From: a virus
Strand: one strand, 5' to 3'
IMG/VR virus record: IMGVR_UViG_3300020419_000054
Span: 1 to 32,228 of that record
Length of the DNA: 32,228 nt
The notes beneath the pieces are model-generated. The model was not told the DNA's origin, made no database searches, and was given only the letters and a program-made list of their open reading frames with translations. Shown in pieces: positions 1 through 18,900 of the stretch; the first letter of the stretch is position 1, and every line of letters begins with the position of its first letter. The position numbers and the translations under genes were made by a program.

Positions 1-998
1 GATTGGTTGATACTTGTACCTATTGAACTTGCTTCCAAAGGTTCTACAAAGTTTGCACTAAGACCAATAGCACAACAATTTGCAATCCAGGGTTTATCTA
101 TTGCTCCAGGATCAAATTTTATATTTTTTGCAACTTCTATTTCGTGACCTAAGTATTTTTCTACTTCTTCCTTGGCCTGATCAGCGTTTATGTAATCGCT
201 ATCATAGATGTATCCGTTACCTTTTCTACCCCATACAGGAATTCTAAACATCCAACCACAGTCCATTGCTCGTGCTAGTGTCCAAATTGGTATTTCATCT
301 TCTTCTGGTGTAGGAAATACTATAGCTTCCTTCATCTTTAACCATTGCCTATAACTTTTCCATTTGGCTCCTAGTTTACTAATTAAAAGTCTTTTAAATC
401 CTGTACAATCAATGTAAAAGTCATAGTGGTAATCCTGCTTTTGACCTTTTAAATATTTTATTTCCGTTGACCAAATTGGTTCTACATCATCATCAATTAT
501 CTCACAACCCATTTCTTTAGACTTTTTTGTCAAATAATCATTTAGCTTACTTGTATTAAAGTGATATTGAGACACACCGGTTTCATTTGGTCTCTCTTCA
601 ATAAATTTCATAAAAGGTGTTTTGTTATCCCATAGGTAATCGCCAGTAAGTTTTCTTGGATCAACATTTTCACTCATCAGTTTTGAATATACAATAGGAA
701 ACCCGTTTCTATCTGCAGAATAATGCGAATGAACATTTTGTAAGTAATCTCTATTACCCCAATCCTTAAACATGATACCTGTTTTAAATGTTGCATCACA
801 TTCTCTAATCATTTCTCCTGCCTGTATACCAACAAAATCCATAAATCGTGACCAATGCTCGGTAGATCCTTCTCCAACACCAATGGTTGGTATATTAGAA
901 CTTTTTATTATGTCAACTGTGTAGGTCGGAAAGGATGCTTTCAGCGTTAATGCTGATACAAACCCTGCTGTTCCTCCACCTACAACGCAAATTTTCAC
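1..998 (-). CDS. Flavin-dependent (tryptophan-type) halogenase, 3'-truncated by the window edge
   Basis: About 332 N-terminal residues are present and the C-terminus lies beyond base 1. Residues 4-13 read CVVGGGTAGF, the GxGxxG dinucleotide site for FAD. GVGEGST (40-46) is the second conserved flavin-halogenase box. K72, in the context ATFKTG followed by MFKDW, sits where the catalytic lysine (K79 of PrnA) lies. Further on come GWMFRIP, the halogenase WxWxIP motif with the second Trp replaced by Phe, and FVEPLEASSIG near the truncated end, which carries the conserved Glu. The family uses FADH2, O2 and halide to form HOCl or HOBr that halogenates Trp, indoles, phenols or other electron-rich rings. 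Marine cyanophages are known to carry such enzymes (VirX1 from phage Syn10). The GTG start overlaps the preceding stop as GTGA, implying translational coupling; the first in-frame ATG would remove the FAD motif. The substrate cannot be told from sequence. Confidence 0.9.
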   Translation of the reverse strand, partial: MKICVVGGGTAGFVSALTLKASFPTYTVDIIKSSNIPTIGVGEGSTEHWSRFMDFVGIQAGEMIRECDATFKTGIMFKDWGNRDYLQNVHSHYSADRNGFPIVYSKLMSENVDPRKLTGDYLWDNKTPFMKFIEERPNETGVSQYHFNTSKLNDYLTKKSKEMGCEIIDDDVEPIWSTEIKYLKGQKQDYHYDFYIDCTGFKRLLISKLGAKWKSYRQWLKMKEAIVFPTPEEDEIPIWTLARAMDCGWMFRIPVWGRKGNGYIYDSDYINADQAKEEVEKYLGHEIEVAKNIKFDPGAIDKPWIANCCAIGLSANFVEPLEASSIGTSINQ

Positions 999-1360
999 TG
1001 TGTTACTCCATAGTCGGGAAATGTAAAGCCTTGACCAAAGCCGATGATACAATATGTGTTATATGGATCGCCATGACGTTCTACAATAGTAAATGTTTTA
1101 GTGTCAAGATTCACATAGACAGCTAATGGTAATATAGCTGGTGTATTTGATAATCCATTTGCTTCATCAGGGTCTCTAACTTTTATAATTATGTCACCTG
1201 TAAATAGCAGTTGTTCATCTTTTTCACCCATAAGTCCAAAAACTTCAAATTCGTCACCACACATCACAGGTTTTTCTTGCCATTCGCCTGCACTAGCTCT
1301 TGTATCTGTGATTACAGCTACCGTTGTAAATAAAACTAATACTGCTATTAGTAATCTCAT
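995..1360 (-). CDS. Small exported protein of unknown function
   Basis: This is a 121-aa protein I do not recognise. Residues 1 to about 24 form a textbook Sec signal peptide: Met-Arg, a hydrophobic stretch (LLIAVLVLFTTVAVI), then a polar region with ASA before Gly, a plausible signal-peptidase I site. The mature part is about 97 aa, probably beta-rich, and has two Cys (in PVMCGDEF and NTYCIIGF) that could form a disulfide in the periplasm. The start has a good Shine-Dalgarno (AGGAG about 7 bases upstream). The stop overlaps the halogenase GTG start by 4 bp, and the P4H-like gene ends 9 bp upstream, so it is embedded in the enzyme cassette. An exported protein inside a cytoplasmic enzyme run is odd. 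It might act on the infected cell's envelope, but that is inference. Confidence 0.75.
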   Translation of the reverse strand: MRLLIAVLVLFTTVAVITDTRASAGEWQEKPVMCGDEFEVFGLMGEKDEQLLFTGDIIIKVRDPDEANGLSNTPAILPLAVYVNLDTKTFTIVERHGDPYNTYCIIGFGQGFTFPDYGVTQ

Positions 1361-1369
1361 CGTAATCTC

Positions 1370-1945
1370 CTATTCATCGAAAGTATACCAACCAGATACA
1401 ATGTATTTTATGCCTTTGTATATTGGATTTCCCCTATGAGGGTGCGTATAGTACGCTGGAAATATTGCTAATTTACCTGGTTCAGGTTTTATTTTTACAC
1501 CTTGGTACAAAAATTCTGTCTCTCCGCCTTCTTCAACTGTATTAAGGTATAAAGTATACGCCATTAACCTTGAAGATGTGCATAAATCTGCGTTCTCACA
1601 ATGCCAAGCATGATATCCTTGATGTGGTCTTGTTTTTTGAATGCTCATTCCTTTAGGAGAGTGTTGAACAACTGCTCCTAAGCTGTCATATTTTTTTCTA
1701 TACTTCTCTTCGTATGTCGTCATTACAGTTTGATAAAAAAACTTACATAAGTCTGCATCAACATGAAACATGTTGTTATGATTTGCCATGTCCATAAAAA
1801 TTCTTTCATCTTGATTCTTAAAACCAGTTTGATGTTCAGTCAACTGCATACTTGCACGTTGTTCAAAAGTTTCTATAAGTTTTTTGCAATAGTCTAAAGG
1901 AAAGCAATGCTTGTATTCTTCTATTCCATTAAAATCATTTTCCAT
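1370..1945 (-). CDS. 2OG-Fe(II) oxygenase, prolyl-4-hydroxylase-like
   Basis: This is a 191-aa single-domain protein. The Fe(II) site is visible: YHAWHCEN provides a His-x-Glu variant of the HxD motif, and the distal His lies in the YYTHPHRGNP segment. A basic residue in GIKYIVSGW near the C-terminus is in the position that binds the 2-oxoglutarate 5-carboxylate. LYLNTVEEGGETEF between them is the usual double-stranded beta-helix core, and IKPEPGKLAIFPAYYTHPH is the typical P4H-type stretch leading to the second His. The fold hydroxylates protein side chains or small substrates using 2OG and O2, and T4-like marine phages carry many such genes. SD AGGAG precedes the ATG by about 6 bases. HxE instead of HxD is compatible with iron binding in some members. 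The substrate is unknown; neighbouring fibres are one candidate. Confidence 0.85.
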   Translation of the reverse strand: MENDFNGIEEYKHCFPLDYCKKLIETFEQRASMQLTEHQTGFKNQDERIFMDMANHNNMFHVDADLCKFFYQTVMTTYEEKYRKKYDSLGAVVQHSPKGMSIQKTRPHQGYHAWHCENADLCTSSRLMAYTLYLNTVEEGGETEFLYQGVKIKPEPGKLAIFPAYYTHPHRGNPIYKGIKYIVSGWYTFDE

Positions 1946-1953
1946 AATGTCTC

Positions 1954-2682
1954 CTATATAAAAAATTGTTGGTTGAGTCTATAATTGTCCTCAACAAACA
2001 TACCCTCTTTTACGTATGCAGTATGCAATACTTCTTGTTTATACAATACCATTCTGTTAAACTTCATAGGTGCCATACCGATCTTTCTCCAATCATGAAT
2101 ATCATCATTGATATATTTTAGAATTGGCATTTTTCCCTCTACATCATATGTGCCTTTAGGCATAGTATCATCATACTTGGTTTTTCCGCCAAAAGTATAG
2201 AAGCTAGTTCCGCCGTTAGACTCGTTAGGATCGTTAAGATATATTGTACTTGCAAAATTAAGTCCTGATGGACTGTCCATGTGTGGTCCAATGGGTGGCA
2301 ATGTTTTAGTTTGCATTACATTTACCATGAATGTTGCATTTGTAAAACTTTGTTCAAGATAGTTTAAAGGAAGTTGGCTGGCTTCTTCGTGAAAGTGTGT
2401 TCTTATTAATTGATCAAACACCCAAGCCATAGGAGAAAGATCATAAAATGCATTTATTCTTAATGCTGGATTACCCCCGCGTATTCTTTTATTTTGTGAT
2501 GCAGGAATATCTAATGCTAGTTGTCTGACCATTGCAGGATTTTTATAAAAGTCATCAACAATAACAACTTTTACCCATTTATCTTTATTTTTCTCGTTGC
2601 CTGGTTGGAATGTTTCAACGAATGTTGAATACCCTGGGTTTATTTCAAATGCTTCATATTCATCTATGCTATTTTTCTTCAT
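1954..2682 (-). CDS. DUF6445-like putative 2OG-Fe(II) oxygenase
   Basis: This is a 242-aa protein. The N-terminal third has VVIVDDFYKNPAMVRQLAL, the opening signature of DUF6445-type proteins. A core follows with GPHMDSPSGLNFASTIYLN, giving a His-x-Asp metal pair, then NGGTSFYTFGG. A later His in EVLHTAYVKEG and an Arg in DNYRLNQQFFI fit the remaining iron and 2OG ligands. The fold assignment rests on these motifs only. The gene overlaps the upstream 201-aa oxygenase gene by 14 bp, and the P4H-like gene follows after 8 bp. I see no frameshift or truncation. It could act on proteins, lipids or sugars; nothing in the sequence decides this. Confidence 0.75.
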   Translation of the reverse strand: MKKNSIDEYEAFEINPGYSTFVETFQPGNEKNKDKWVKVVIVDDFYKNPAMVRQLALDIPASQNKRIRGGNPALRINAFYDLSPMAWVFDQLIRTHFHEEASQLPLNYLEQSFTNATFMVNVMQTKTLPPIGPHMDSPSGLNFASTIYLNDPNESNGGTSFYTFGGKTKYDDTMPKGTYDVEGKMPILKYINDDIHDWRKIGMAPMKFNRMVLYKQEVLHTAYVKEGMFVEDNYRLNQQFFI

Positions 2683-3274
2683 TTTCTTTTAACTCCAGGA
2701 TAAAATTTGCACTAATTGTAGCCCTATGGTTGTTTGTTTTGTTTCCTGTAACATAATGTTCTAATGTACTTGGAAAAAATATGATATCACCTTCATCTAA
2801 TGGAGGTGTTATTCTGTTATTGTATTGAAATGGTTTGCTTGATAATACTGGTAAGCCGCTCGCATGTAAGTCATCATATGTATTTTTATAAAACACAAAA
2901 TTTCCACTATCTTTTGGAGTGTTCATCATGTATGCACAACTGAAAACACTTCGGCCGGCATGATTATGAACTTCTTGGTAACAATCTTTCTTATATCTAT
3001 TAAGCCAACACTCAACTCCGTACCTAAGTGGTGCGTCTATATTGAAATGTGTAATATATTTGTTAAGAACTATGATTGCATTCTTGATAAATTCATTGAA
3101 TGGTAATTGATTGGCTTCAGGATTGCCGAATGTAGTATCTACATTGCTATACCAAGATGAAACATTTTCAAAATGCTCATCTTTTTTGATTATATCTTCA
3201 AACTCCTTCTGTACTTTTTCGTGTTCAGGTAATTTAGTTTTATAAACAGGTATAGCATATAGATTTTGTAACAT
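2669..3274 (-). CDS. 2OG-Fe(II) oxygenase, TIGR02466/PF13759-like
   Basis: This is a 201-aa protein with the layout of the small phage and bacterial putative 2OG-Fe(II) oxygenases. The N-terminal half is helical. It is followed by QEVHNHAGRSVFSCAYMM (first metal His and the start of the jellyroll), GNFVFYKN, DEGDIIFFPSTLEHYV (second His) and then NNHRATISANF, with the Arg expected to bind 2-oxoglutarate. The family is very common in T4-like marine phages, where a structural or virion-modifying role is suspected but unproven. Its ATG shares one base with the stop of the carbamoyltransferase gene (TAATG), and its 3' end overlaps the DUF6445-like gene by 14 bp. This indicates coupled translation of three consecutive enzymes. 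Confidence 0.83.
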   Translation of the reverse strand: MLQNLYAIPVYKTKLPEHEKVQKEFEDIIKKDEHFENVSSWYSNVDTTFGNPEANQLPFNEFIKNAIIVLNKYITHFNIDAPLRYGVECWLNRYKKDCYQEVHNHAGRSVFSCAYMMNTPKDSGNFVFYKNTYDDLHASGLPVLSSKPFQYNNRITPPLDEGDIIFFPSTLEHYVTGNKTNNHRATISANFILELKENEEK

Positions 3275-5097
3275 TAATTCTTCATTTCTATTAATTTACC
3301 ATACTCGGGTAGATAACAGTACTCCATTTCACTATTGTACAAAGTTCTTATCGCATCATCTAGTGTTTCAACCAATGGTTCACCTGCAAGATTAAAACTT
3401 GTATTGAAAATAATTGGTATGTTTGTTTTTTTATAAAATTCTTCGATCAGATCATAGTAATTTTTGTTTTGTTCTCTGGTTACAGTTTGTATTCTGCAAG
3501 TTCCGTCTACATGAATTATACTAGGAATCTTTTCTGCTACTCCTTCTTGGCAATCCATTGCATACATCATATGGGGTGACTGCTCCATATCCTTCATATC
3601 AAACCAGTCATGAGCATGTTCAAGCAAGATTGAACCAGCGAACGGCCTAAAGTATTCTCTTCTTTTAACTTTATTAACAAAATCCTTACCATCTTCGTGT
3701 GTAGGATCAAATAAAATACTTCTGTTACCCAATGCTCTTGGACCGTTTTCTGATCTTCCTTGAAATATAGTTACAATATTCTTTGTTGTTAATAAATCTA
3801 CTACACTCTTATTATCTGCATCAACAACATTTGCTCCATACTTTTCTGCAATGGCTGATATGTCATTTAATGAATAATGATATTCAAAACCTTCGTATAT
3901 TGTTTCTGCGTAAGGTCTTACTTTTCGATCTTTTGTAGTTTGATGATATTGCAACATAGCCGCACCTATTGCCGTACCTGCATCGTTACTTACTGGTTCT
4001 ACGTAAAGTTTTATATCTTCTTTGTTAAGTGCATCAAGGAAAAAATAGTTTGCTACACAATTAAGAGCATATCCTCCGCTCAAAACTACATTTTTATTGC
4101 CAGTCATTTCAACTGCTTTGAAAATCAACCTCAAAACTTCTTCTTGTGATTCTTTTTGAACAGCGTATGCAAGATTTCTTCTATTTTCTAGCGTAGTCAT
4201 GTCTACTCTGCTATGATGTTGGTCTTCTGTTGTCTCTAGATATGAATATTTTGACTCATTTACTAGGGCGGCATTCGGATACGTAGGAATTATAAAGTTT
4301 TTATCAGCAGATCTCCATTTTCCACCACCACCGTCTGTATAAATTGGCGGAAATTTATCACAAGGTTTACCGTATGGGCTTAACCCCATAGTTTTTCCAG
4401 CTTCAATTGGTTGAAATCCGCAATATTGTGTAACTGCCTCATACGCTTTGACTATTCCAGCTGTATCATCCAATACTAGTTCATGATATCCTTCTTCACG
4501 CTCTCTATCTGAAGGTATTTGATCAATCTTTGTACCTGGGTATGGACCATTACCACCTTGGTGTTTATATAATGTCTTAAAATCATCTGGATAGTTACAT
4601 GAAAAAATGCTTTCACATTCCCAAGTCATAGTTTCATCTTGGAACCTACCTGTATTAATATTCATAGGAATGAATGTTCCTGCACCGTCTACCACCAAAG
4701 CTGTAGCTGAATCAAATCCTGATCGATAAAAAGCACAAGCGGCATGTAGCTTATGGTGTATATCACTCATGTCTATTACCTGCCTATGTTCAAATTCACT
4801 CGCGTATGCTGAGTCTGATCTATCAATGAGGCCAAGTTTTCTTGCTAGACCAGTGTACATATCGCCGCCACTAAAGTCTATTCTGCTAGAATCGGCCAAA
4901 GGTTGTGTATGAGCTACCACTAGATAATCTAATTTGTCCGTATAATCAAGGAATTTAGTCATTGCGGCTAACGGTCCTCCGTCATATTTCTTTCTAGTTA
5001 GACGTTCTTCTTCAATTGCAAAAATTATTTCACCATCTTTCAATAAAACTGCTCCACCATTGTGGCCTCTTGTAATTGCACCAATCCATTGTGTCAT
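3274..5097 (-). CDS. O-carbamoyltransferase, NodU/CmcH/TobZ family
   Basis: The 607 aa match the family length. The N-terminal Kae1/YgjD-like domain begins IGAITRGHNGGAVLL and continues with FAIEEERLTRKKYDGG. HHKLHAACAFYRSGF holds the His residues that in TobZ bind metal and nucleotide, and ALVVDGAG follows. NVVLSGGYALNCVANY and PVSNDAGTAIGAA complete that ATP-binding lobe. The C-terminal YrdC-like part contains RSENGPRALGNRSIL and FRPFAGSIL, then FNTSFNLAGEPLVETLDDA. The enzyme uses carbamoyl phosphate and ATP to form carbamoyl-AMP, then carbamoylates a hydroxyl group on a sugar, nodulation factor or antibiotic. All major motifs look intact, so it is probably active. A hydroxyl acceptor would fit the surrounding hydroxylases and the GT9-like enzyme. 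An SD (AGGAG) lies about 9 bases before the ATG. Confidence 0.93.
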   Translation of the reverse strand: MTQWIGAITRGHNGGAVLLKDGEIIFAIEEERLTRKKYDGGPLAAMTKFLDYTDKLDYLVVAHTQPLADSSRIDFSGGDMYTGLARKLGLIDRSDSAYASEFEHRQVIDMSDIHHKLHAACAFYRSGFDSATALVVDGAGTFIPMNINTGRFQDETMTWECESIFSCNYPDDFKTLYKHQGGNGPYPGTKIDQIPSDREREEGYHELVLDDTAGIVKAYEAVTQYCGFQPIEAGKTMGLSPYGKPCDKFPPIYTDGGGGKWRSADKNFIIPTYPNAALVNESKYSYLETTEDQHHSRVDMTTLENRRNLAYAVQKESQEEVLRLIFKAVEMTGNKNVVLSGGYALNCVANYFFLDALNKEDIKLYVEPVSNDAGTAIGAAMLQYHQTTKDRKVRPYAETIYEGFEYHYSLNDISAIAEKYGANVVDADNKSVVDLLTTKNIVTIFQGRSENGPRALGNRSILFDPTHEDGKDFVNKVKRREYFRPFAGSILLEHAHDWFDMKDMEQSPHMMYAMDCQEGVAEKIPSIIHVDGTCRIQTVTREQNKNYYDLIEEFYKKTNIPIIFNTSFNLAGEPLVETLDDAIRTLYNSEMEYCYLPEYGKLIEMKN

Positions 5098-5113
5098 AGA
5101 TTTATTCTCCTAA

Positions 5114-5755
5114 TTAATTTACCTCATAACTGAAATCACAAACAAATACCCTACGGTTGTTTAGTGTAGGATATGTTCCGTGAAATACTCGTCCGTCCAT
5201 AATAACAACACCACCCGGTGTTGGTCTTACACGAACATGATTTATTTCATGCTCAAACGGCTGTAGTGTAACCAATGATCCTGCTAACGGATATTGTTCT
5301 GATACCATTACATCATCTAAAAACATTACAACTGATAACTGTCTGCCTGGCTGATGACAATGCATGCCACTATAAGAACCTGGCGGATATTTTAATCCCC
5401 ATGCTTTTAAACATTTTCCCATAGTAATTGGTAATTCACTTTCAATTAAACATTTTTTAATAAATTTTTGAAAGTCTAATTCAGGATCAACTGCTTCTGG
5501 ATATTCCATTTCACCCTGTGTGTAAAATACATAAGGTCCTTCAAATGCCTTTTTAGTATCATATATTTTATCGTCAAATAACTTTTCAAACTTTTTATAT
5601 TCGGGATAAAAATTATCTGTAATAACCCAAGTCTCTAATTTATCTGAAGCTCTTACTCTTGTAGGTTCACTAAATCCACCAGTGTTGACATGGTATTGAT
5701 ATGAATCTTCTAACTCATTTAGTATATTACGTTCTTGTTGTGGATTTAGTTTCAC
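5114..5755 (-). CDS. 2OG-Fe(II)/cupin-fold oxygenase
   Basis: This is a 213-aa protein. The predicted double-stranded beta-helix lies in the second half: YPPGSYSGMHCHQPGRQLS supplies a His-x-His pair, SVVMFLDDV is a core strand, and GGVVIMDGRVFHGTYPT carries the distal His. RRVFVCDFSYEV follows, with Arg placed to hold 2-oxoglutarate. The N-terminal half (about 110 aa) is helical, of unknown role. The gene starts at GTG (5753-5755), which overlaps the TGA of the glycosyltransferase gene as GTGA. No alternative ATG occurs until well inside the protein. The family is not as clearly assigned as the TIGR02466-like neighbour: the metal site could be His/His/His (cupin-like) rather than the classic His/Asp/His. 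Confidence 0.75.
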   Translation of the reverse strand: MKLNPQQERNILNELEDSYQYHVNTGGFSEPTRVRASDKLETWVITDNFYPEYKKFEKLFDDKIYDTKKAFEGPYVFYTQGEMEYPEAVDPELDFQKFIKKCLIESELPITMGKCLKAWGLKYPPGSYSGMHCHQPGRQLSVVMFLDDVMVSEQYPLAGSLVTLQPFEHEINHVRVRPTPGGVVIMDGRVFHGTYPTLNNRRVFVCDFSYEVN

Positions 5756-6816
5756 TTTCCTGTCCTTCCTAAAATCTGTGCAGGTTGTTTTGCGTGTGTC
5801 ACTCCTGCATCATTTTTGTGGACAACCCCATGCGTCGGGCAGACTTCTCCTTGTTGTTCTTGTGGTTTATACGTTCCTTGATAACTCCTAGGCTTACCAA
5901 GACGTTTACGCACACTTGATACAATTTTTTTAAAACTTTCATCATTTAACTCCATAACTTCATCGTTATATCTTTCAATTTCATCTTCCATTGTTAATCT
6001 AATAGGACTAAATTTCCTTTTGCCTTCTCCTAAATCAATTATATCAAAGTCTGGAGAGTTAGGATAAGAAATATTAATAGGATATGTGCTACCAATTACA
6101 CTGGTACATGTAGTTCCTAATGCTTTTGCCATATGTTGACCTAAACTATCGCAACCTAAAAAGTGATCTGCAATTTGTATTACACTTGACCAAACTCTTA
6201 CATCTGGTACTTGTGGTACTGCTACTGGAACTTTAGAATTTTCTTCTATGGTTACTGGAAATTCAGACATAATTATTATTGCATAATCATCTCTCAAGTC
6301 CTTACAAATCCTTATCACATCATTTAAATGAAAACTTCTTGAGGAGCCATCTATAATAAAATCACCCATATTTTCAGCTGTTCTACCAAATGGCTGAAAA
6401 ACCAAAACTTTATCTTTGCCAGTGACTGCTTTTATCTCTTCTACCATTTTGTATCCTTGAACAAGTTCGTGCTTATTCATATATATTTTAGGATCTGGTA
6501 CTTCACGTAAACCTTCATTGTTGATTGCAATATCAAACGCTTGAGCTAGACTGCATTTTTGATTGTAGTATTCCCAAACTCTATAAGGTTCAGGAGTGAT
6601 ACAGTCTCTATCTTTAATATAGTCTTTGAATAAATTTTTATGCCAATGATCGTAGGCAAGTTCATGTAATTGCGGATGTCCTTTATAGAACTCCATACCT
6701 CCTTCACAGACAATAATAAAGTCTTTGTCTTTTTCGTAAAGTTTTTCAAAGGCAGGAATACTAGCTACTGTTCTACCTGCACCACCGTTCATAAAATATG
6801 CTTTTTTTCTTGACAC
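5752..6816 (-). CDS. GT9/heptosyltransferase-like GT-B glycosyltransferase
   Basis: This is about 354 aa. It opens with KKAYFMNGGAGRTVASIPAF, the GT9-type glycine-rich loop and helix. The C-terminal Rossmann lobe shows VLVFQPFG, a strand with AIIIMSEFPV, IADHFLGCDSLGQHMAKALG (the nucleotide-sugar site helix of heptosyltransferases) and CTSVIGSTYPIN. The product would be a sugar transferred to a lipopolysaccharide core, glycan or protein. I place the start at GTG 6814-6816 because AGGAG stands about 7 bases upstream; the longer reading frame to TTG at 6837 would translate the ribosome-binding site itself. The last ~45 residues are a polar tail with Cys and His (CPTHGVVHKND), not part of GT9. 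A late-promoter octamer lies just upstream at 6839-6846, making this the first gene of the enzyme cassette. Confidence 0.75.
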   Translation of the reverse strand: MSRKKAYFMNGGAGRTVASIPAFEKLYEKDKDFIIVCEGGMEFYKGHPQLHELAYDHWHKNLFKDYIKDRDCITPEPYRVWEYYNQKCSLAQAFDIAINNEGLREVPDPKIYMNKHELVQGYKMVEEIKAVTGKDKVLVFQPFGRTAENMGDFIIDGSSRSFHLNDVIRICKDLRDDYAIIIMSEFPVTIEENSKVPVAVPQVPDVRVWSSVIQIADHFLGCDSLGQHMAKALGTTCTSVIGSTYPINISYPNSPDFDIIDLGEGKRKFSPIRLTMEDEIERYNDEVMELNDESFKKIVSSVRKRLGKPRSYQGTYKPQEQQGEVCPTHGVVHKNDAGVTHAKQPAQILGRTGK

Positions 6817-6838: not shown

Positions 6839-6846
6839 TATTTATG
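6839..6846 (-). promoter_or_regulatory. Putative T4-type late promoter (CATAAATA) for the enzyme cassette
   Basis: The minus strand reads CATAAATA, matching the NATAAATA late-promoter octamer of T4-like marine phages. It lies about 20 bases before the GTG start of the glycosyltransferase and just ahead of its AGGAG. It is in the 82-bp gap after the tail chaperone gene, so the enzymes could be expressed late, together with the virion genes. Confidence 0.55.
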
Positions 6847-6898: not shown

Positions 6899-7687
6899 TT
6901 ATTTCTTGCCTGCGGCTTTTTGTGCGGCGACAGCCACATCAACAGCAAATGCACCATCTCTATATGGATCATTTGGATCTGATGCTTCATCAGGCTCTCT
7001 CATGTCCTTAGGCATAACAGGAAACATCTGTACTGCTTGCCAAGGTTCATAGCCCTTTGCTTCCATAACAGCTGGTAAATCTCTTAATCTTTGTCTGTAT
7101 TCTTTCCACGCTGTTTGTATTGATTCAGGAGCATCTGTCATTCCAACTTTTGCATCTGTTTCGTGCAACGCGGCATCTCTAGTATCTCTAACCTGTGCCC
7201 AAGTTAACGTTAAATCAGAACCGGTAGCTGTCCAATCATGAATACCAATAACAAACTCGCCCTTTTCGAAATCATATGTGATATTTTGATCATCATATAC
7301 GTCACGTGGTTCAAGTTCATCTGTGTATTCTACGTCCATATAACCATCTGGAGCGTCCCATAAAATTTTCCATTCACGACCTCTACGGAATTCTACCATA
7401 TCTTCTCGTCCGTCGTCGTTACCAATTTCACAAAGCAATGGATTTTCTTTACAATCTACAGTAATTCTAGTTACATCAGCGCCTGCTGGTCTTTCTAGAT
7501 CACGTTTTTCCCACATGCACCATCCAGTTTCAGTTCCATAATCTTCACTGCTTTTATCATTGTTTACTTCAAAAGTAAGGAACTCAGGGCCTTTGTATGT
7601 GAAAGTTCCAGTTCTACCTTGAGTAAAACTGTTTGTTCTCCATTCATCCCAAATTGGATACTGAAATGTTTTTTCTATTTTTCTCAT
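6899..7687 (-). CDS. Tail fibre assembly chaperone-like protein (Phage_TAC/APC type)
   Basis: This is a 262-aa acidic protein. Residues about 186-222 contain ESIQTAWKEYRQRLRDLP followed by a Trp-containing stretch ending FPVMP, the recognisable core of phage tail assembly chaperones (compare PF16778). The upstream ~180 aa are beta-rich with many aromatic and acidic residues and two Cys (CKENPLLCE), of no family I know. The C-terminal tail is Ala-rich and ends AAGKK. Position supports the call: chaperones of this kind usually sit next to the fibre tip or adhesin they fold, and here three adhesin-like genes lie immediately upstream. SD AGGAG lies about 10 bases from the ATG, with a late-promoter octamer before it. 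Confidence 0.65.
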   Translation of the reverse strand: MRKIEKTFQYPIWDEWRTNSFTQGRTGTFTYKGPEFLTFEVNNDKSSEDYGTETGWCMWEKRDLERPAGADVTRITVDCKENPLLCEIGNDDGREDMVEFRRGREWKILWDAPDGYMDVEYTDELEPRDVYDDQNITYDFEKGEFVIGIHDWTATGSDLTLTWAQVRDTRDAALHETDAKVGMTDAPESIQTAWKEYRQRLRDLPAVMEAKGYEPWQAVQMFPVMPKDMREPDEASDPNDPYRDGAFAVDVAVAAQKAAGKK

Positions 7688-7719: not shown

Positions 7720-8556
7720 TTACATAAAAGTTATTCTTACAACACCAGAACCACCCTGTCCTGATCCACCTGCACAGCATTTTGCCCAGTTATTACAGTA
7801 TGAACTAACACCCGATTGTCCGCCACCAGCTGGCCAGTCAATGTGACATCCACATGAGCACCATGCTTCATTGGTTACACCCACTTGCATTCTACCAAAT
7901 TGTGGTGCTGATCCTGATCCTGAATATGTAAACCAACAGTGACATCCACCATGCCCTGGTTCCCATCCTGTTGATCCCATCATTCCGAAATCTGCTCCAA
8001 AAATTCCACAAATATTACAGTTTGAACATGAGTGTGAGTGTCTTGGTCCCCAAGCATCTCCATTACACATCCAACCTCCACAACCACCTGTGGTACAGAA
8101 GTTACTTAGATTATGTCCATTAACATAACTTTTACAACCCATACCTGCACCGCAAGTATGTGCTTTACCACATGGCCATGCCCCGCCAGCACAAACTGAG
8201 TACTGACAACCTGGTGAAGTTGCTATTGTTTTAGATGCATAGTTTCCGCCTGCGCCACCTGTTGTGAATGAACAACAGTTACAGCAAGTCATTCCTGCTC
8301 CGCCACCGCCGCCTGACCAAATCTCAAATTGCACTGTTGATGCACCTGTTGGTACACACCAGTAGCAACATCTACCATTTGCCTGCTGACAACAGCCTGA
8401 TTGTCTTGCACACATATGACAACGGAAACCGCGATCATTATAAATCCATTGCACACCCATGCTGTGACCAGCACCTGGCGCCAAATCATCTGACGTTAGT
8501 GTTGCGTCTGCTATTGAGTCATTTGCTACTTTTTTATAACTTGCGTATGTTGCCAT
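7720..8556 (-). CDS. Gly/Cys-rich adhesin-like tail fibre tip protein, copy 3 of 3
   Basis: This is 278 aa with 30 Cys and many Gly. The N-terminus (MATYASYKKV, then LAPGAG) resembles the attachment segments of phage fibre proteins. The central and C-terminal parts have glycine runs (FEIWSGGGGGAG, AGGSGQGGSG) and end VVRITFM, the strand pattern typical of glycine-rich phage fibre domains. Cys occurs as CC pairs (SGCC, RCC, TCC, NCC, KCC) and in GxC contexts spread along the chain. The segment between GIFGADFG (about residue 185) and NEAWC (about 230) differs sharply among the three paralogues and is the likely receptor-contact loop. Function is inferred from composition and context (next to a tail chaperone and fibres). 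In an oxidising sea-water environment the Cys could form a dense disulfide lattice; metal binding is the alternative. Confidence 0.7.
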   Translation of the reverse strand: MATYASYKKVANDSIADATLTSDDLAPGAGHSMGVQWIYNDRGFRCHMCARQSGCCQQANGRCCYWCVPTGASTVQFEIWSGGGGGAGMTCCNCCSFTTGGAGGNYASKTIATSPGCQYSVCAGGAWPCGKAHTCGAGMGCKSYVNGHNLSNFCTTGGCGGWMCNGDAWGPRHSHSCSNCNICGIFGADFGMMGSTGWEPGHGGCHCWFTYSGSGSAPQFGRMQVGVTNEAWCSCGCHIDWPAGGGQSGVSSYCNNWAKCCAGGSGQGGSGVVRITFM

Positions 8557-8565
8557 AATTTTTTC

Positions 8566-9402
8566 CTATGCGTATGTTATCTTTACTAATCCTGATCCGC
8601 CCATATTGCCACCTGCACAACAACTTGCCCAGTTTCCACAATATGAACTTGTTCCTGTCATTCCGCCTCCTGATGGCCAGTTAGTATAACATGCACAACC
8701 ACACCATGCTTCAGCGTGTGCGTGTACACCTTGCTTGCCTACAAACGGTGCTACACCAGTTTGCATCCAGTCTGCTGATCTACATTGACATCCACCGTGT
8801 CCACCTGTTACTCCAGTAGATCCCATAATTCCAAAATCTGCTCCAAAGATTCCACAAACATTACAGTTCGCACAAGTTTGTGTATGGTTAGGTCCCCATG
8901 CACCACCGTTACACATCCAACCCGAACATCCTCCTGTAGAACAGAAGTTACTTAAATTGTATCCGTTTACATATGAACGACATCCCATGCCTGCTGTACA
9001 AGTATGTGACTTAGAACAAGGCCATGTACCACCTGCACAAACTGAATAAGCACAACCTGCCGCTGTGTTAATAGTTTTTACAGCGTAATTTCCACCTGAT
9101 CCTCCAGCTGAGTGTTTACAGTTGTTACAACAAGTACCACCTGCTCCTGCTCCACCACCTGACCAAATTTCAAACGTAACTTTATTAACATTTGATGGTA
9201 CAGTCCAATAGCAACACTTACCATTAGCTTGTTGACAACAATCGCCTGCGTCAGCACAGTGTTCACATGCTTTTCCTCTTTCATTATAAATCCACTTAAC
9301 ATAGTACTGATGTCCTGCACCAGGTCCTAGTTTTGCACTCGTGATACTTCCGTCTACAAAGTTTTCTGATGTTAGTGTTTTATAACTTGCGTATGTTGCC
9401 AT
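8566..9402 (-). CDS. Gly/Cys-rich adhesin-like tail fibre tip protein, copy 2 of 3
   Basis: This is 278 aa with 28 Cys and is colinear with its two neighbours. The conserved Cys-pair positions are retained (DCC, KCC, TCC, SCC), but the NCC pair of the other copies reads NNC here, so this copy has fewer paired cysteines. The variable segment after GIFGADFG carries GVTGGHGGCQC followed by an Asp/Trp/Gln-rich loop and HAHAEAWC, unlike the other two. Its C-terminus is GGSGLVKITYA. SD AGGA lies upstream of the ATG. It is probably a receptor-binding paralogue with another specificity. The possibility that all three form one heterotrimeric tip cannot be excluded from sequence. Confidence 0.7.
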   Translation of the reverse strand: MATYASYKTLTSENFVDGSITSAKLGPGAGHQYYVKWIYNERGKACEHCADAGDCCQQANGKCCYWTVPSNVNKVTFEIWSGGGAGAGGTCCNNCKHSAGGSGGNYAVKTINTAAGCAYSVCAGGTWPCSKSHTCTAGMGCRSYVNGYNLSNFCSTGGCSGWMCNGGAWGPNHTQTCANCNVCGIFGADFGIMGSTGVTGGHGGCQCRSADWMQTGVAPFVGKQGVHAHAEAWCGCACYTNWPSGGGMTGTSSYCGNWASCCAGGNMGGSGLVKITYA

Positions 9403-9411
9403 CTTTATTTC

Positions 9412-10251
9412 CTAAACGTATGTTATCTTTACTATTCCTGAGCCGCCTTGTCCTGATCCACCAGCACAACACTTTGCCCAATTTCCACAATATGAACTAG
9501 TACCAGGAGTTCCGCCACCTGATGGCCAATTAATATGACATCCACAGGCACACCAAGCCTCGTTAGTACTTGTTTGCATATATTTACCAATACCTGCACC
9601 TGCTCCAGTCCATGATGTTTGACCGTGACATCTACAAATAGTAGTTCCAGCTTTAAATCCTGGTGATCCACCAAATCCAAAGTCTGCTCCAAAAATTCCA
9701 CAAATATTACATGATGCACAAAGACTTGTTAAATGCCTTTGACCCCATGCATCTCCATTACACATCCAGCCTCCACAGCCTCCCATCACACAAAAGTTTG
9801 ATAGGTTATGACCGTTTACGTATGAACGACATCCCATTCCTGGAGAACATGTATGCGATTTTTCACAAGGCCATGATCCACCCGCACATACTGTATATGC
9901 ACAGTTGGGATTAGTATTAATAGTTCTTGATGCGTATCCACCGCCGTGTCCGCCAATTGCGAACGAACAACAGTTACAACAAGTATGTCCTGGGCCACCT
10001 CCGCCTCCGGACCAAATTTCAAAGGTTACTTTATAAACGTTTGCTGGTGTTGTCCAATAACAACATTTACCGTTTGCCGCTTGACAACAGTTACCTGCTA
10101 TGGAACAATCATGACATGCCATGCCACGTTCGTTATAAATCCATTGCACTCTACGACAACTGCCTGCTCCAGGAGCCAATTTGGCCGCTGTTATGGCATT
10201 GGTCGGAATAGCTTCCGATGTTACTTTCTTATAACTTGAGTATGTTGCCAT
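9412..10251 (-). CDS. Gly/Cys-rich adhesin-like tail fibre tip protein, copy 1 of 3
   Basis: This is 279 aa with 30 Cys and is the first of the triplet to be transcribed. The N-terminus MATYSSYKKV and AAKLAPGAG match phage fibre N-terminal segments. It alone has a Cys right after the LAPGAG block (GSCRRVQ). Glycine-rich stretches are FEIWSGGGGGPG, IGGHGGGYAS and CAGGSGQGGSG, ending IVKITYV. Its variable loop reads SPGFKAGTTICRCHG before the shared NEAWC. The ribosome-binding site is weak (GGGGAC some distance from the ATG). It follows the 149-aa structural protein gene by 21 bp and has no promoter octamer of its own, so it should be read through from upstream. Confidence 0.7.
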   Translation of the reverse strand: MATYSSYKKVTSEAIPTNAITAAKLAPGAGSCRRVQWIYNERGMACHDCSIAGNCCQAANGKCCYWTTPANVYKVTFEIWSGGGGGPGHTCCNCCSFAIGGHGGGYASRTINTNPNCAYTVCAGGSWPCEKSHTCSPGMGCRSYVNGHNLSNFCVMGGCGGWMCNGDAWGQRHLTSLCASCNICGIFGADFGFGGSPGFKAGTTICRCHGQTSWTGAGAGIGKYMQTSTNEAWCACGCHINWPSGGGTPGTSSYCGNWAKCCAGGSGQGGSGIVKITYV

Positions 10252-15972: not shown

Positions 15973-18900
15973 TTATCCGTTAAAGTCGTCTCGTTCAGTT
16001 CTGCTAGACATGAACATGTTTAGCGCCGCTAATCCACCGCCTAGTGGTCCATTTACAATAAATTGTGGACTTACTGAAGCCATTGCACTTTCATTATTAG
16101 ATCCTGCCGTATTTGACATTATAAGCCCAGACAGTTTTATCTGTCCAGCTGTCAGTTCGTTTGTAAACAGGTTAGCACCACCACCTGTAAATCTGTTCTC
16201 AATGTAACTTTTTAGTGCTTTTTGTGTAGGTACAATGCTGTTTGACGATGCAACAAATGTATTCTCTGTAGAAAATTCGTTAATTGTTGCTTGTGATCCG
16301 CCTAAACTAATACCACCTAATCTTAATTCATCTAGTCCTGATAAGTCAAAGAAGTCTGCACTTAAAGTTACTCCACCTTGTGCTTGACTAACTCTAAACA
16401 GTTCACCAACTCGATAGTTACCATCTTGGTCAGTACTTGTGTAGAATACTCTACCACCATTTGATTCAACAACTTCGTTAGCTTGTTCTGTTTCGTTAGC
16501 AAGATCTTGTCCAAAAACATACAACCCAGGATAGTTTGTATTTGTAAAGTTACCTGTTCCAATGTCTAAGAAATCATGTCCTGTCAATCTACACTGACTG
16601 TATCTTTCTCTTATAGTTGCTGTTGTACCATGTATAGGTGCTGTGCCTCTTGTAAGTACAGGTGATATTTGGAAAGTTAATTCTATGTTCGGGCTAGTAC
16701 CACTATTAGCTGTAACTTTAACAACTCTGTAAATTGTAGTATCTTGTCCTGTTATTCTAAAGTTAGATCCAGGTCCTGGAATTGCTGTAACTCCTGAAAT
16801 CTTCATAGTATTACCTATTTGCAATTCTTCTGCAAAACCGTCTCCAGTAAGTGTAATTATTGCACTCTGATATCCTACTCCTCTATTGTAGAAAATAGGT
16901 TGAGGTAATACACCGTTCTTAATAGAAACTGTATAGTATGGTTCACCGTATGCTTCAGGGTCGTATATAGTTACTGTTGGAGCAACTGAATATCCACTGC
17001 CTGGGTCATATAATTTAAACTTATCAATTTTTCCGTTTGCAATTTCTACTCTACCTATTGCTCTAGCACCTGTTGTAATAATATTTCCGTTTGCTGTTGA
17101 ATTTAATCCGACAAATGCTGGTAAGTTGTTTTTCTTACCGCCTACAATATGTGTTAGGTTACTGTTGGTTGCTTTTATCTTCCAAACATAACCGTTATCC
17201 GAAGTCAATGTTGTACCAGTTGAACTTACTGCAATAAACACTCCTTGAGTATATGCAACTTTCCAATCTTCTCTACCTGAATCACCTACTAAGCCTGAGT
17301 CATACCAATTAGAACCATCTGCACTGTAAATTATTCTATCTGCATTGTCTAATGATGCAACCCAACAGTTATTACCAAAAACAATATCACTGTATTTTTC
17401 AGTACCATCTAATGTAACTGCTGAACCAGATGACCAAGTTGCTCCGCCATCAGTTGAAGTTGATGTTGTACCAGTTTCACCCATTGCAATCCATTTTCCT
17501 GCACCGTAGGCTATACCTTTTATATCAGTTGATGACGCTGTTGATGTATTCCATGTAGCAGGAACAACTGTTGATGATCCATCAGTTGTTAGCACTGCTC
17601 TATAAACAGTAGCAGTTCCAGTCGCTGTTGCTATAATAGTATTTCCATCTGAGCCTCCTAATTGTACAGCACTCCATGGTTGTCCAGCTCCAATATTAGA
17701 ACTATCCCATGCTATACCATCGTTTGAGAATCCCATAATCGCATCGTTGTTTGCAACACCAACTATTAATGATCCACCTTTACTAAATCTATTCCATTGT
17801 CTACTACCAATAGTAGCAACATTTTCTCTTTCAGTCCAAAGTGATCCGTCTGCTGATACATACCATTTTGAAGTTCCTGGTACTGAGTAATAAAACTGTC
17901 CTGTACCGTCGGAGTATCCTATATCTAAAGATCCTGCCGCTACTGAATTATTTGTTTGTGCATGTGGAGGATCTGAAAAAGTCACTCTAGGTTCAAATTC
18001 ATATTCCGTTGTAGCATCTAAAGTCAATGCTGAAACTTTACCTGGAACAATATTATCCCAACCAGGCTGTTGATCACTTTCTCTGTAAACCATTGCAGTT
18101 TTAGTAGAAGGATCATAGTTCCAAATATATCCAAATTGTCCTGAACCAACACCGCCTTTGATTATAATTCTCATACCGTTCATTTGTGCGGCAGTTCTTG
18201 CTTCTGAAGCCGCAAGTGTAATCTGATCTGTATCTCCGCCTTGTGCATTGTTAGTTGCAAATTTATATCCTCGACCACCTATATTAGTACTATCTCCTAG
18301 TGGTGGAAGATCTAATGTAATTTTATCAATAGCACCGTTACGTATTTCTTGCCATCTCATATCAAGTCCAGTACCGTTTGCTTGACTGACTGTTGGTGTT
18401 GCTGTTGAATATGTTTGTCCGTTATTATTGTATGCCAATGCTAATACGTTTGTATTGCCTACTAAAATATCTTCAACTGCCGCTTCACCTGTTCTATTGT
18501 TTACTGTAACAGTTTGAGGAGTTTCAGCAGTATCGTAACCTTCTGCTACTGATCCAAAGTCACCATATGAGTTGTTACCATTAGTAGCTCTGAGAATACC
18601 TCCACTTTCTGCAAGGTATCCAATGTGTGCGTAATATGTAAACACAGACACTAGCTCTGAACGTCCTAGATTTGTTGCCCAGTATCCAATACCATCACTT
18701 AATACCTGTGTAAAGTCGTTAGCAACTATTGATCTATTTCCGCCATCATGTAAAGCACCATCAATCTTCATACCAACACAATTATCTCCTATCGTTGATA
18801 CTCCTTGAATGTACGGAGATTTACCAGCTTGTATTCTTTCCATATTTACTGCACCTGCAGATGCACTCTTAAATAAGTGTGCAGATGTGTTTGAACTTAT

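Follow-up and report, generated by a model that had tools for sequence, protein, structure and literature searches.

Since their discovery, it has been an open question whether the so-called lipopolysaccharide (LPS) clusters of the cyanophage type are working and on what they act; they have been read as host-surface, metabolite or filler genes. The contig IMGVR_UViG_3300020419_000054 from IMG/VR, which belongs to a marine bacterial virus, was analyzed over its entire length (32,228 nt; hereafter, the window) and carries all its recognizable genes on the minus strand. Eight of these genes, at positions 1–6816, encode a glycosyltransferase (GT), a carbamoyltransferase (CT), four proteins with the 2-oxoglutarate (2OG) oxygenase fold, an exported protein, and a halogenase clipped at the contig end. 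We consider it probable, if well short of certain, that this cassette is a late operon decorating the phage's own tail adhesins with a glycan, possibly S-linked to cysteine. Among the substrates considered in the initial annotation of the locus, the adhesins encoded upstream are favored over a host glycan or a small molecule, because GT and CT adjoin Cys-rich adhesins in almost all of the related viruses examined.

Organization and conservation of the cassette

The first gene of the cassette encodes GT (5752–6816, 354 aa; phrog_8954, T4-GC302) and is followed on the same minus strand by the genes for the oxygenase-like protein OXYa (5114–5755), CT (3274–5097, 607 aa), the oxygenase-like protein OXYb (2669–3274), a DUF6445 protein (1954–2682), the oxygenase OXYd (1370–1945), the small exported protein with a signal-peptide-like start (995–1360), and the truncated halogenase (1–1001). 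Counted from GT in the direction of transcription, adjacent genes are spaced by −4, +16, −1, −14, +8, +9, and −7 bases, and 82 bases lie between the cassette and the gene before it. The octamer CATAAATA (6839–6846, minus strand) lies 30 bases before the GTG start codon of GT at 6816. The initial description of an eight-gene cassette with overlapping or nearly touching ends and a late octamer of its own thus holds.

T4-type late octamers (NATAAATA) occur eight times on the coding strand of the window and never on the other strand, compared to 9.7 expected; their frequency is not above chance and, taken alone, was dropped as promoter evidence in favor of position and conservation. The majority of the octamers sit immediately before the start of an open reading frame (ORF). 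The one preceding GT recurs, as NATAAATATTT or a one-base variant, in almost every close relative, ~30–40 bases ahead of the GT start; in more distant relatives, an octamer lies ~60–70 bases upstream. Given the single-strand placement, the position before ORF starts and the conservation in relatives, the octamer before GT is, as judged from sequence comparison, a real late promoter. In several relatives, including the contig denoted L090, the next coding-strand octamer is found only beyond two more genes. One encodes a 269–287 aa protein without family; the product of the other resembles the heptose-bisphosphate phosphatase GmhB (NCBIfam E = 1e-40, under the curated cut-off). The cassette therefore looks like part of one late operon of ~10 genes that extends past the left end of the window. 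The first of the two additional genes (9632–10441 in L090) has no family match and, by eye, its product appears SGNH-hydrolase-like.

The order GT-(OXYa)-CT-OXYb-DUF6445-OXYd-(exported protein)-halogenase spans 68 marine contigs, or 29 after dereplication, a set chosen by the GT-to-halogenase span and hence containing the halogenase by construction. Among the 29 dereplicated spans, CT is present in 29, DUF6445 in 28, OXYb in 27, OXYd in 25, OXYa (0–2 copies) in 21, and the exported protein gene in 8. The flanks are conserved as well, with adhesin and chaperone genes upstream and tail genes (gp9/10-like, phrog_677 connector) downstream, the latter following the GmhB-like gene. The dN/dS values are mostly 0.01–0.2, and below 0.1 for most gene pairs, similar to those of the neighboring tail genes, although they reach 0.2–0.3 in some pairs of OXYa, DUF6445, and exported protein genes and some dS values are near saturation; by this measure, the cassette is under purifying selection. 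The co-linearity noted initially is thus a property of related genomes, and the genes are not scattered among them without co-occurrence.

A second set of 47 loci, retrieved via a broader alignment, yielded 36 dereplicated GT loci, a few of which overlap the earlier contigs. CT adjoins GT in all 36, and an adhesin with 8–13% Cys precedes GT in each of the 32 loci with enough flank; every Cys-rich ORF flagged in the 36 loci is one of these adhesins. A halogenase is present in about half of them (HAL2 in 16, HAL in 3), and HepK is found in 19. A halogenase-centered view of the operon core was rejected on this ground. From the comparison of loci, the invariant core is the cysteine-rich adhesin, the chaperone-like gene, GT, and CT, whereas the halogenase and oxygenases vary across lineages. 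In cyanophages P-SSM2, S-CAM3, S-SSM7, and Sf-FS3, the block of adhesins, GT, and CT is followed by heptose genes encoding HldE-like halves, an HldD-like epimerase, a phosphatase, and a cupin; in the 262-kb relative G001, a fused HldE-like gene and an HldD-like gene are located elsewhere. The annotation of one gene in S-SSM7 (T4-GC306; L004, 26055–26390) as phosphoheptose isomerase looks wrong, given that the protein contains a HAD-type DIDNT motif and weakly matches a capsule biosynthesis phosphatase.

We rejected the possibility that the window comes from an ordinary psbA-bearing cyanophage: no psbA was found in 10 related contigs of up to 262 kb (possibly fragments), and the large terminase subunit (TerL) of G001 is closest to those of PA5oct-type jumbo phages of Pseudomonas (55%, compared to 34% for cyanophage Sf-FS3). 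GT and CT, for their part, are closest to those of cyanophages Sf-FS3 and S-SSM7. G001 carries further clusters (L117–L126) with genes for radical SAM proteins, GT25, GT8, a sulfotransferase, a DegT aminotransferase, two more halogenases, and other carbamoyltransferases. Blocks of tail genes, GT, and CT are also present in metagenome-assembled genome (MAG) contigs labeled Euryarchaeota and Neomarinimicrobiota in GTDB (L134–L138), which are likely phage contigs binned into MAGs.

Cysteine-dense tail proteins beside the glycosyltransferase

Directly ahead of the cassette, and likewise on the minus strand, are a gene for a tail-assembly-chaperone-like protein (6899–7687; PF16778, phrog tail fiber assembly) and three tandem genes (7720–10251) for Gly/Cys-rich adhesins that are 63–64% identical to each other, namely, adhesin 3 (7720–8556; 30 Cys in 278 aa), adhesin 2 (8566–9402; 28 Cys), and adhesin 1 (9412–10251; 30 Cys), each a likely target. 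Tail fibers and baseplate-wedge-like proteins are encoded further upstream. Adhesins of this family contain 28–32 Cys in ~278 aa, and among the 223 ORFs of at least 200 aa in G001 and the relative G004, only the six adhesins exceed 8% Cys. All 21 phage-collection records in which the adhesin was found come from genomes with GT; in one case, a single-cell genome, GT and the adhesin lie on different contigs. GT searches begun at either end of the family retrieved 55 records each, with identical make-up.

The association of GT with Cys-dense proteins extends beyond the adhesin family. In the marine viruses AG-345-O18 and AG-345-P14, Cys-rich proteins missed by the adhesin search are encoded immediately upstream of GT, and in Aeromonas phage HJ05, a 23-Cys protein directly precedes it. 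In N4-like Vibrio phages, a distant GT homolog is flanked by tail genes, and its annotated neighbors include no sugar genes or sugar cluster. The tail protein adjoining this GT contains 39–41 Cys, as opposed to 2–9 Cys in homologous tail proteins of Vibrio phages outside the GT list; segments that align contain up to 23 Cys but share no more than one. This contrast is based on two GT lineages, distant homologs, and partial alignments. IMG/VR yielded no homologs of the Vibrio and Aeromonas GTs. The simplest reading of these patterns is that GT acts on the Cys-dense proteins, perhaps on the cysteines themselves. No report of such a link between GT and adhesin cysteines was found in searches of open-licence papers. 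In the adhesins, Cys is the most conserved residue and is near-invariant in 16 columns, for which reason structural roles are likely for some of the cysteines; a compensation test applied to their Cys counts gave an uninformative ratio of 0.95. Elsewhere in the tail region, the fiber encoded at 15973–21546 carries four carbohydrate-binding modules of the CBM_5_12 family (Pfam E = 3e-40), which suggests a glycan receptor.

Predicted activities of the encoded enzymes

The AlphaFold model of GT (pLDDT 72, pTM 0.76), built, like the other structure models, on an alignment of mostly close sequences, displays the GT-B fold of two Rossmann-like domains expected of GT9, and its best Foldseek matches are a Veillonella GT9 (3tov), TibC, WaaF, and WaaC (E-values from 4e-8 to 1e-6, probability 1.00, TM ~0.5). 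It was the fold search that identified GT9: GT has no Pfam match, and its profile produced chance matches only against PDB sequences. The match to the NCBIfam heptosyltransferase III is weak (E = 0.009 over 35 residues). The GT9-like C-lobe motif CDSxGQHxAxALG is kept. The position of the catalytic Asp of GT9 enzymes (WaaC SSMGDVLHTLPA; Asp110 in TibC, PMC4358343) aligns by eye with Arg15 of GT (GGAGRTVASIPA), which is invariant even in homologs with ~25% identity. There is no TibC-type N-terminal β-barrel in the GT model, the first Rossmann-like strand of which starts at residue 5, and no TibC-type four-Cys iron finger is evident in the GT alignment.

CT is predicted to be a NodU/TobZ-type O-carbamoyltransferase. 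It carries both characteristic domains (PF02543 and PF16861), has GdmN and TobZ as solved relatives, and keeps the HxxxH motif and Asp of the N domain, with the His/His/Asp residues invariant, as well as the GPRALGNRS motif.

The four oxygenase-like proteins, initially all taken for potential hydroxylases, fall into two groups. OXYd resembles prolyl 4-hydroxylases (PF13640, E = 4e-11; solved relatives, E = 2e-10). The DUF6445 protein (E = 2e-17) was modeled with a pLDDT of 87, and its PDB matches are nearly all 2OG-Fe(II) oxygenases at modest TM scores (0.3–0.47); its profile matches the other oxygenases weakly, and the fold assignment is that of the structure model. In both proteins, the metal-binding triad HxD/E...H is present and invariant (HxE...H...K in OXYd and HxD...H...R in the DUF6445 protein). 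OXYb (PF13759, E = 2.5e-14) and OXYa (phrog_81, E = 1e-8; profile–profile match to its neighbor, 90%) instead both read HxH...H...R. Because HxH replaces HxD/E, it would be unsafe to treat these two as ordinary hydroxylases; the same HxH is found in their solved, uncharacterized relative 2rg4. Several database labels are discordant: that of phrog_1644 (1954–2682), "minor coat protein", looks wrong, the modeled fold being that of a 2OG oxygenase, and the phrog_2297 and phrog_274 profiles, labeled "DNA endonuclease", match OXYd. In many relatives (for example, at 2906–3640 in L121), a 244-aa protein without known family is encoded between OXYa and CT; it is absent from the window.

The flavin-dependent halogenase-like protein (PF04820, E = 2e-68) is represented in the window by 333 of ~479 codons. 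The GxGxxG motif and the catalytic Lys72 and Glu322 were aligned to solved halogenases and are invariant in an alignment of 24 relatives' sequences. The WxWxIP motif of tryptophan halogenases reads WMFRIP in this clade, with Phe in place of the second Trp. A weak match to LodB covers the FAD domain only, and the enzyme might oxidize Trp in a protein. The small exported protein, optional in the operon, belongs to no known family and had no match among the records of the phage collection; its conserved core (AGEW...KPVMC; AGEWQEKPVMC in the family at large) is shared by ~20 marine viral contigs.

Candidate substrates and comparison with known systems

We propose that the GT9-like enzyme puts heptose or a related sugar onto the Cys-rich adhesins encoded just upstream and that CT would then carbamoylate the adhesin-borne sugar. 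The GmhB-like phosphatase, together with the HldE-like and HldD-like enzymes in a relative, could help to supply activated heptose. The lineage-variable 2OG oxygenases and halogenase would add oxygen or halogen marks to the sugar or the protein, and such variable marks would diversify the virion surface, with a possible bearing on receptor binding, stability or hiding from host defenses. Carbamoylated heptose is present in Pseudomonas LPS, for which the putative carbamoyltransferase is WapO (PMC8005017), and this chemistry, combined with the heptose genes, suggests a simpler order of GT and CT action than one in which hydroxylases come first. The resemblance of the GT model to TibC, an adhesin heptosylator, would likewise count for adhesin decoration. 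More tentatively, and in our view rather doubtfully, GT could represent a GT9-like S-glycosylating family that places multiple heptoses on adhesin cysteines, with CT, the oxygenases, and the halogenase building a diversified carbamoylated, oxidized or halogenated coat on the host-binding tips. Speculatively, S-linkage to Cys would account for the missing catalytic Asp, as it might be unneeded with a thiolate acceptor.

Several points weigh against adhesin decoration. With Arg at the position of the catalytic Asp, GT activity itself is not certain; conserved adhesin cysteines would also be expected if they form disulfides or bind metal; part of the linkage between adhesin and GT could reflect inheritance of one block; and the Vibrio contrast is based on two GT lineages and distant homologs. 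Furthermore, GT9 enzymes are involved in LPS synthesis too, the usual reading of P-SSM2-type clusters is as LPS genes, and late expression fits alteration of the host surface before lysis as well.

Some of these points are shared by an account in which the adhesin cysteines are structural and GT targets Ser/Thr, in the manner of TibC, or another virion protein, with the GT–CT pair and the adhesins forming an exchangeable host-range module. We regard this as somewhat unlikely; it differs from the favored reading solely in the acceptor residue, still allows virion glycosylation, and overlaps it in confidence. The 16 near-invariant Cys columns, the conservation of the block, and the use of Ser by TibC are in line with it, but the Vibrio and AG-345 tail proteins, which lie beyond adhesin homology, are also Cys-dense beside GT, and homologs in phages without GT lack the cysteines. 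Less probable still is modification of the host surface: GT would attach a heptose-type sugar to the LPS or capsule of the host, the remaining enzymes would elaborate on it, and superinfection or re-adsorption to debris would thereby be prevented. This is the usual interpretation of cyanophage clusters (PMC3037559; PMC7824862), compatible with the fold shared with LPS heptosyltransferases and with the heptose genes. However, the cassette sits among tail genes and follows a conserved late promoter; GT goes together with Cys-dense tail proteins even in the Vibrio phages, where its annotated neighbors include no sugar genes; and no genes for a lipid carrier, flippase or polymerase were seen in the operon.

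Synthesis of a small halogenated sugar or amino-acid metabolite during infection, antibiotic- or signal-like, has been proposed for the S-SSM6a cluster (PMC7824862), and carbamoyltransferases, halogenases, and oxygenases do co-occur in actinobacterial natural-product clusters. Nevertheless, the halogenase is retained in only about half of the 36 further loci, compared to GT–CT in all, the operon encodes no scaffold-making enzyme (nonribosomal peptide synthetase, polyketide synthase or amino-acid ligase), and the linkage to adhesin and tail genes is strict, so we find this explanation quite improbable. Filler DNA, or a chance pile-up of auxiliary genes, is hardly credible and was rejected on dN/dS and synteny: sporadic occurrence of the halogenase and CT in 16 cyanophages (PMC3037559) would fit it, but the dN/dS values match those of tail genes, gene order is kept over 29 dereplicated lineages, and active-site residues are invariant.

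Parts of this gene complement have been noted before. Sullivan 2010 (PMC3037559) listed the halogenase and CT as sporadic in the 16 cyanophages, left the function of the LPS clusters open, and raised the filler possibility. Iyer 2021 (PMC7824862) described a 10-gene cluster in S-SSM6a with carbamoyltransferases, a halogenase, 2OG oxygenases, a cupin, and a phosphatase, read as serving capsule decoration or metabolite synthesis; contrary to the initial annotation, therefore, these families were not known only singly in phages. What the linkage of adhesin, GT, and CT adds is a way to turn the question of the LPS clusters into a direct test on the virions of cultured phages (S-SSM7, P-SSM2, and Vibrio SBP1). 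If adhesin decoration holds true, many marine phages make chemically elaborate receptor-binding proteins that protein sequence by itself does not predict, and a new class of cysteine glycosyltransferase may be present in these phages.

Among known systems, the S-SSM7/S-SSM6a cluster (T4-GC302–308, halogenase, and 2OG oxygenases) has in common with the window the order adhesins-chaperone-(DUF6445)-GT-CT, with CT followed by a 2OG oxygenase, a second CT, a halogenase, and heptose genes. In S-SSM7, the heptose genes are in line and the halogenase is more distant, whereas the clade of the window has the GmhB-like gene instead of the heptose genes and an extra exported protein. The cyanophage halogenase VirX1 (PDB 6qgm) belongs to the same flavin-dependent superfamily as the enzyme of the window but is distant from it, the latter's clade reading WxFxIP for WxWxIP. 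Glycans on phage structural proteins are known from the virions of mycobacteriophages (Freeman et al. 2023, cited in PMC12691614); these are different phages, and the citing passage mentions no heptose, carbamoyl or halogenase genes. The bacterial autotransporter heptosyltransferases TibC and Aah resemble GT in the GT9-like fold, gene location beside an adhesin, and heptose supply; unlike GT, they possess the N-terminal β-barrel and four-Cys iron finger and a catalytic Asp where GT has Arg, and the proposed target in the window is a Cys-rich phage adhesin. WaaC and WaaF, combined with WapO, parallel the cassette in fold and in pairing heptose with carbamoyl chemistry, but the cassette resides inside a phage tail region, and its association is with tail proteins, not with LPS genes.

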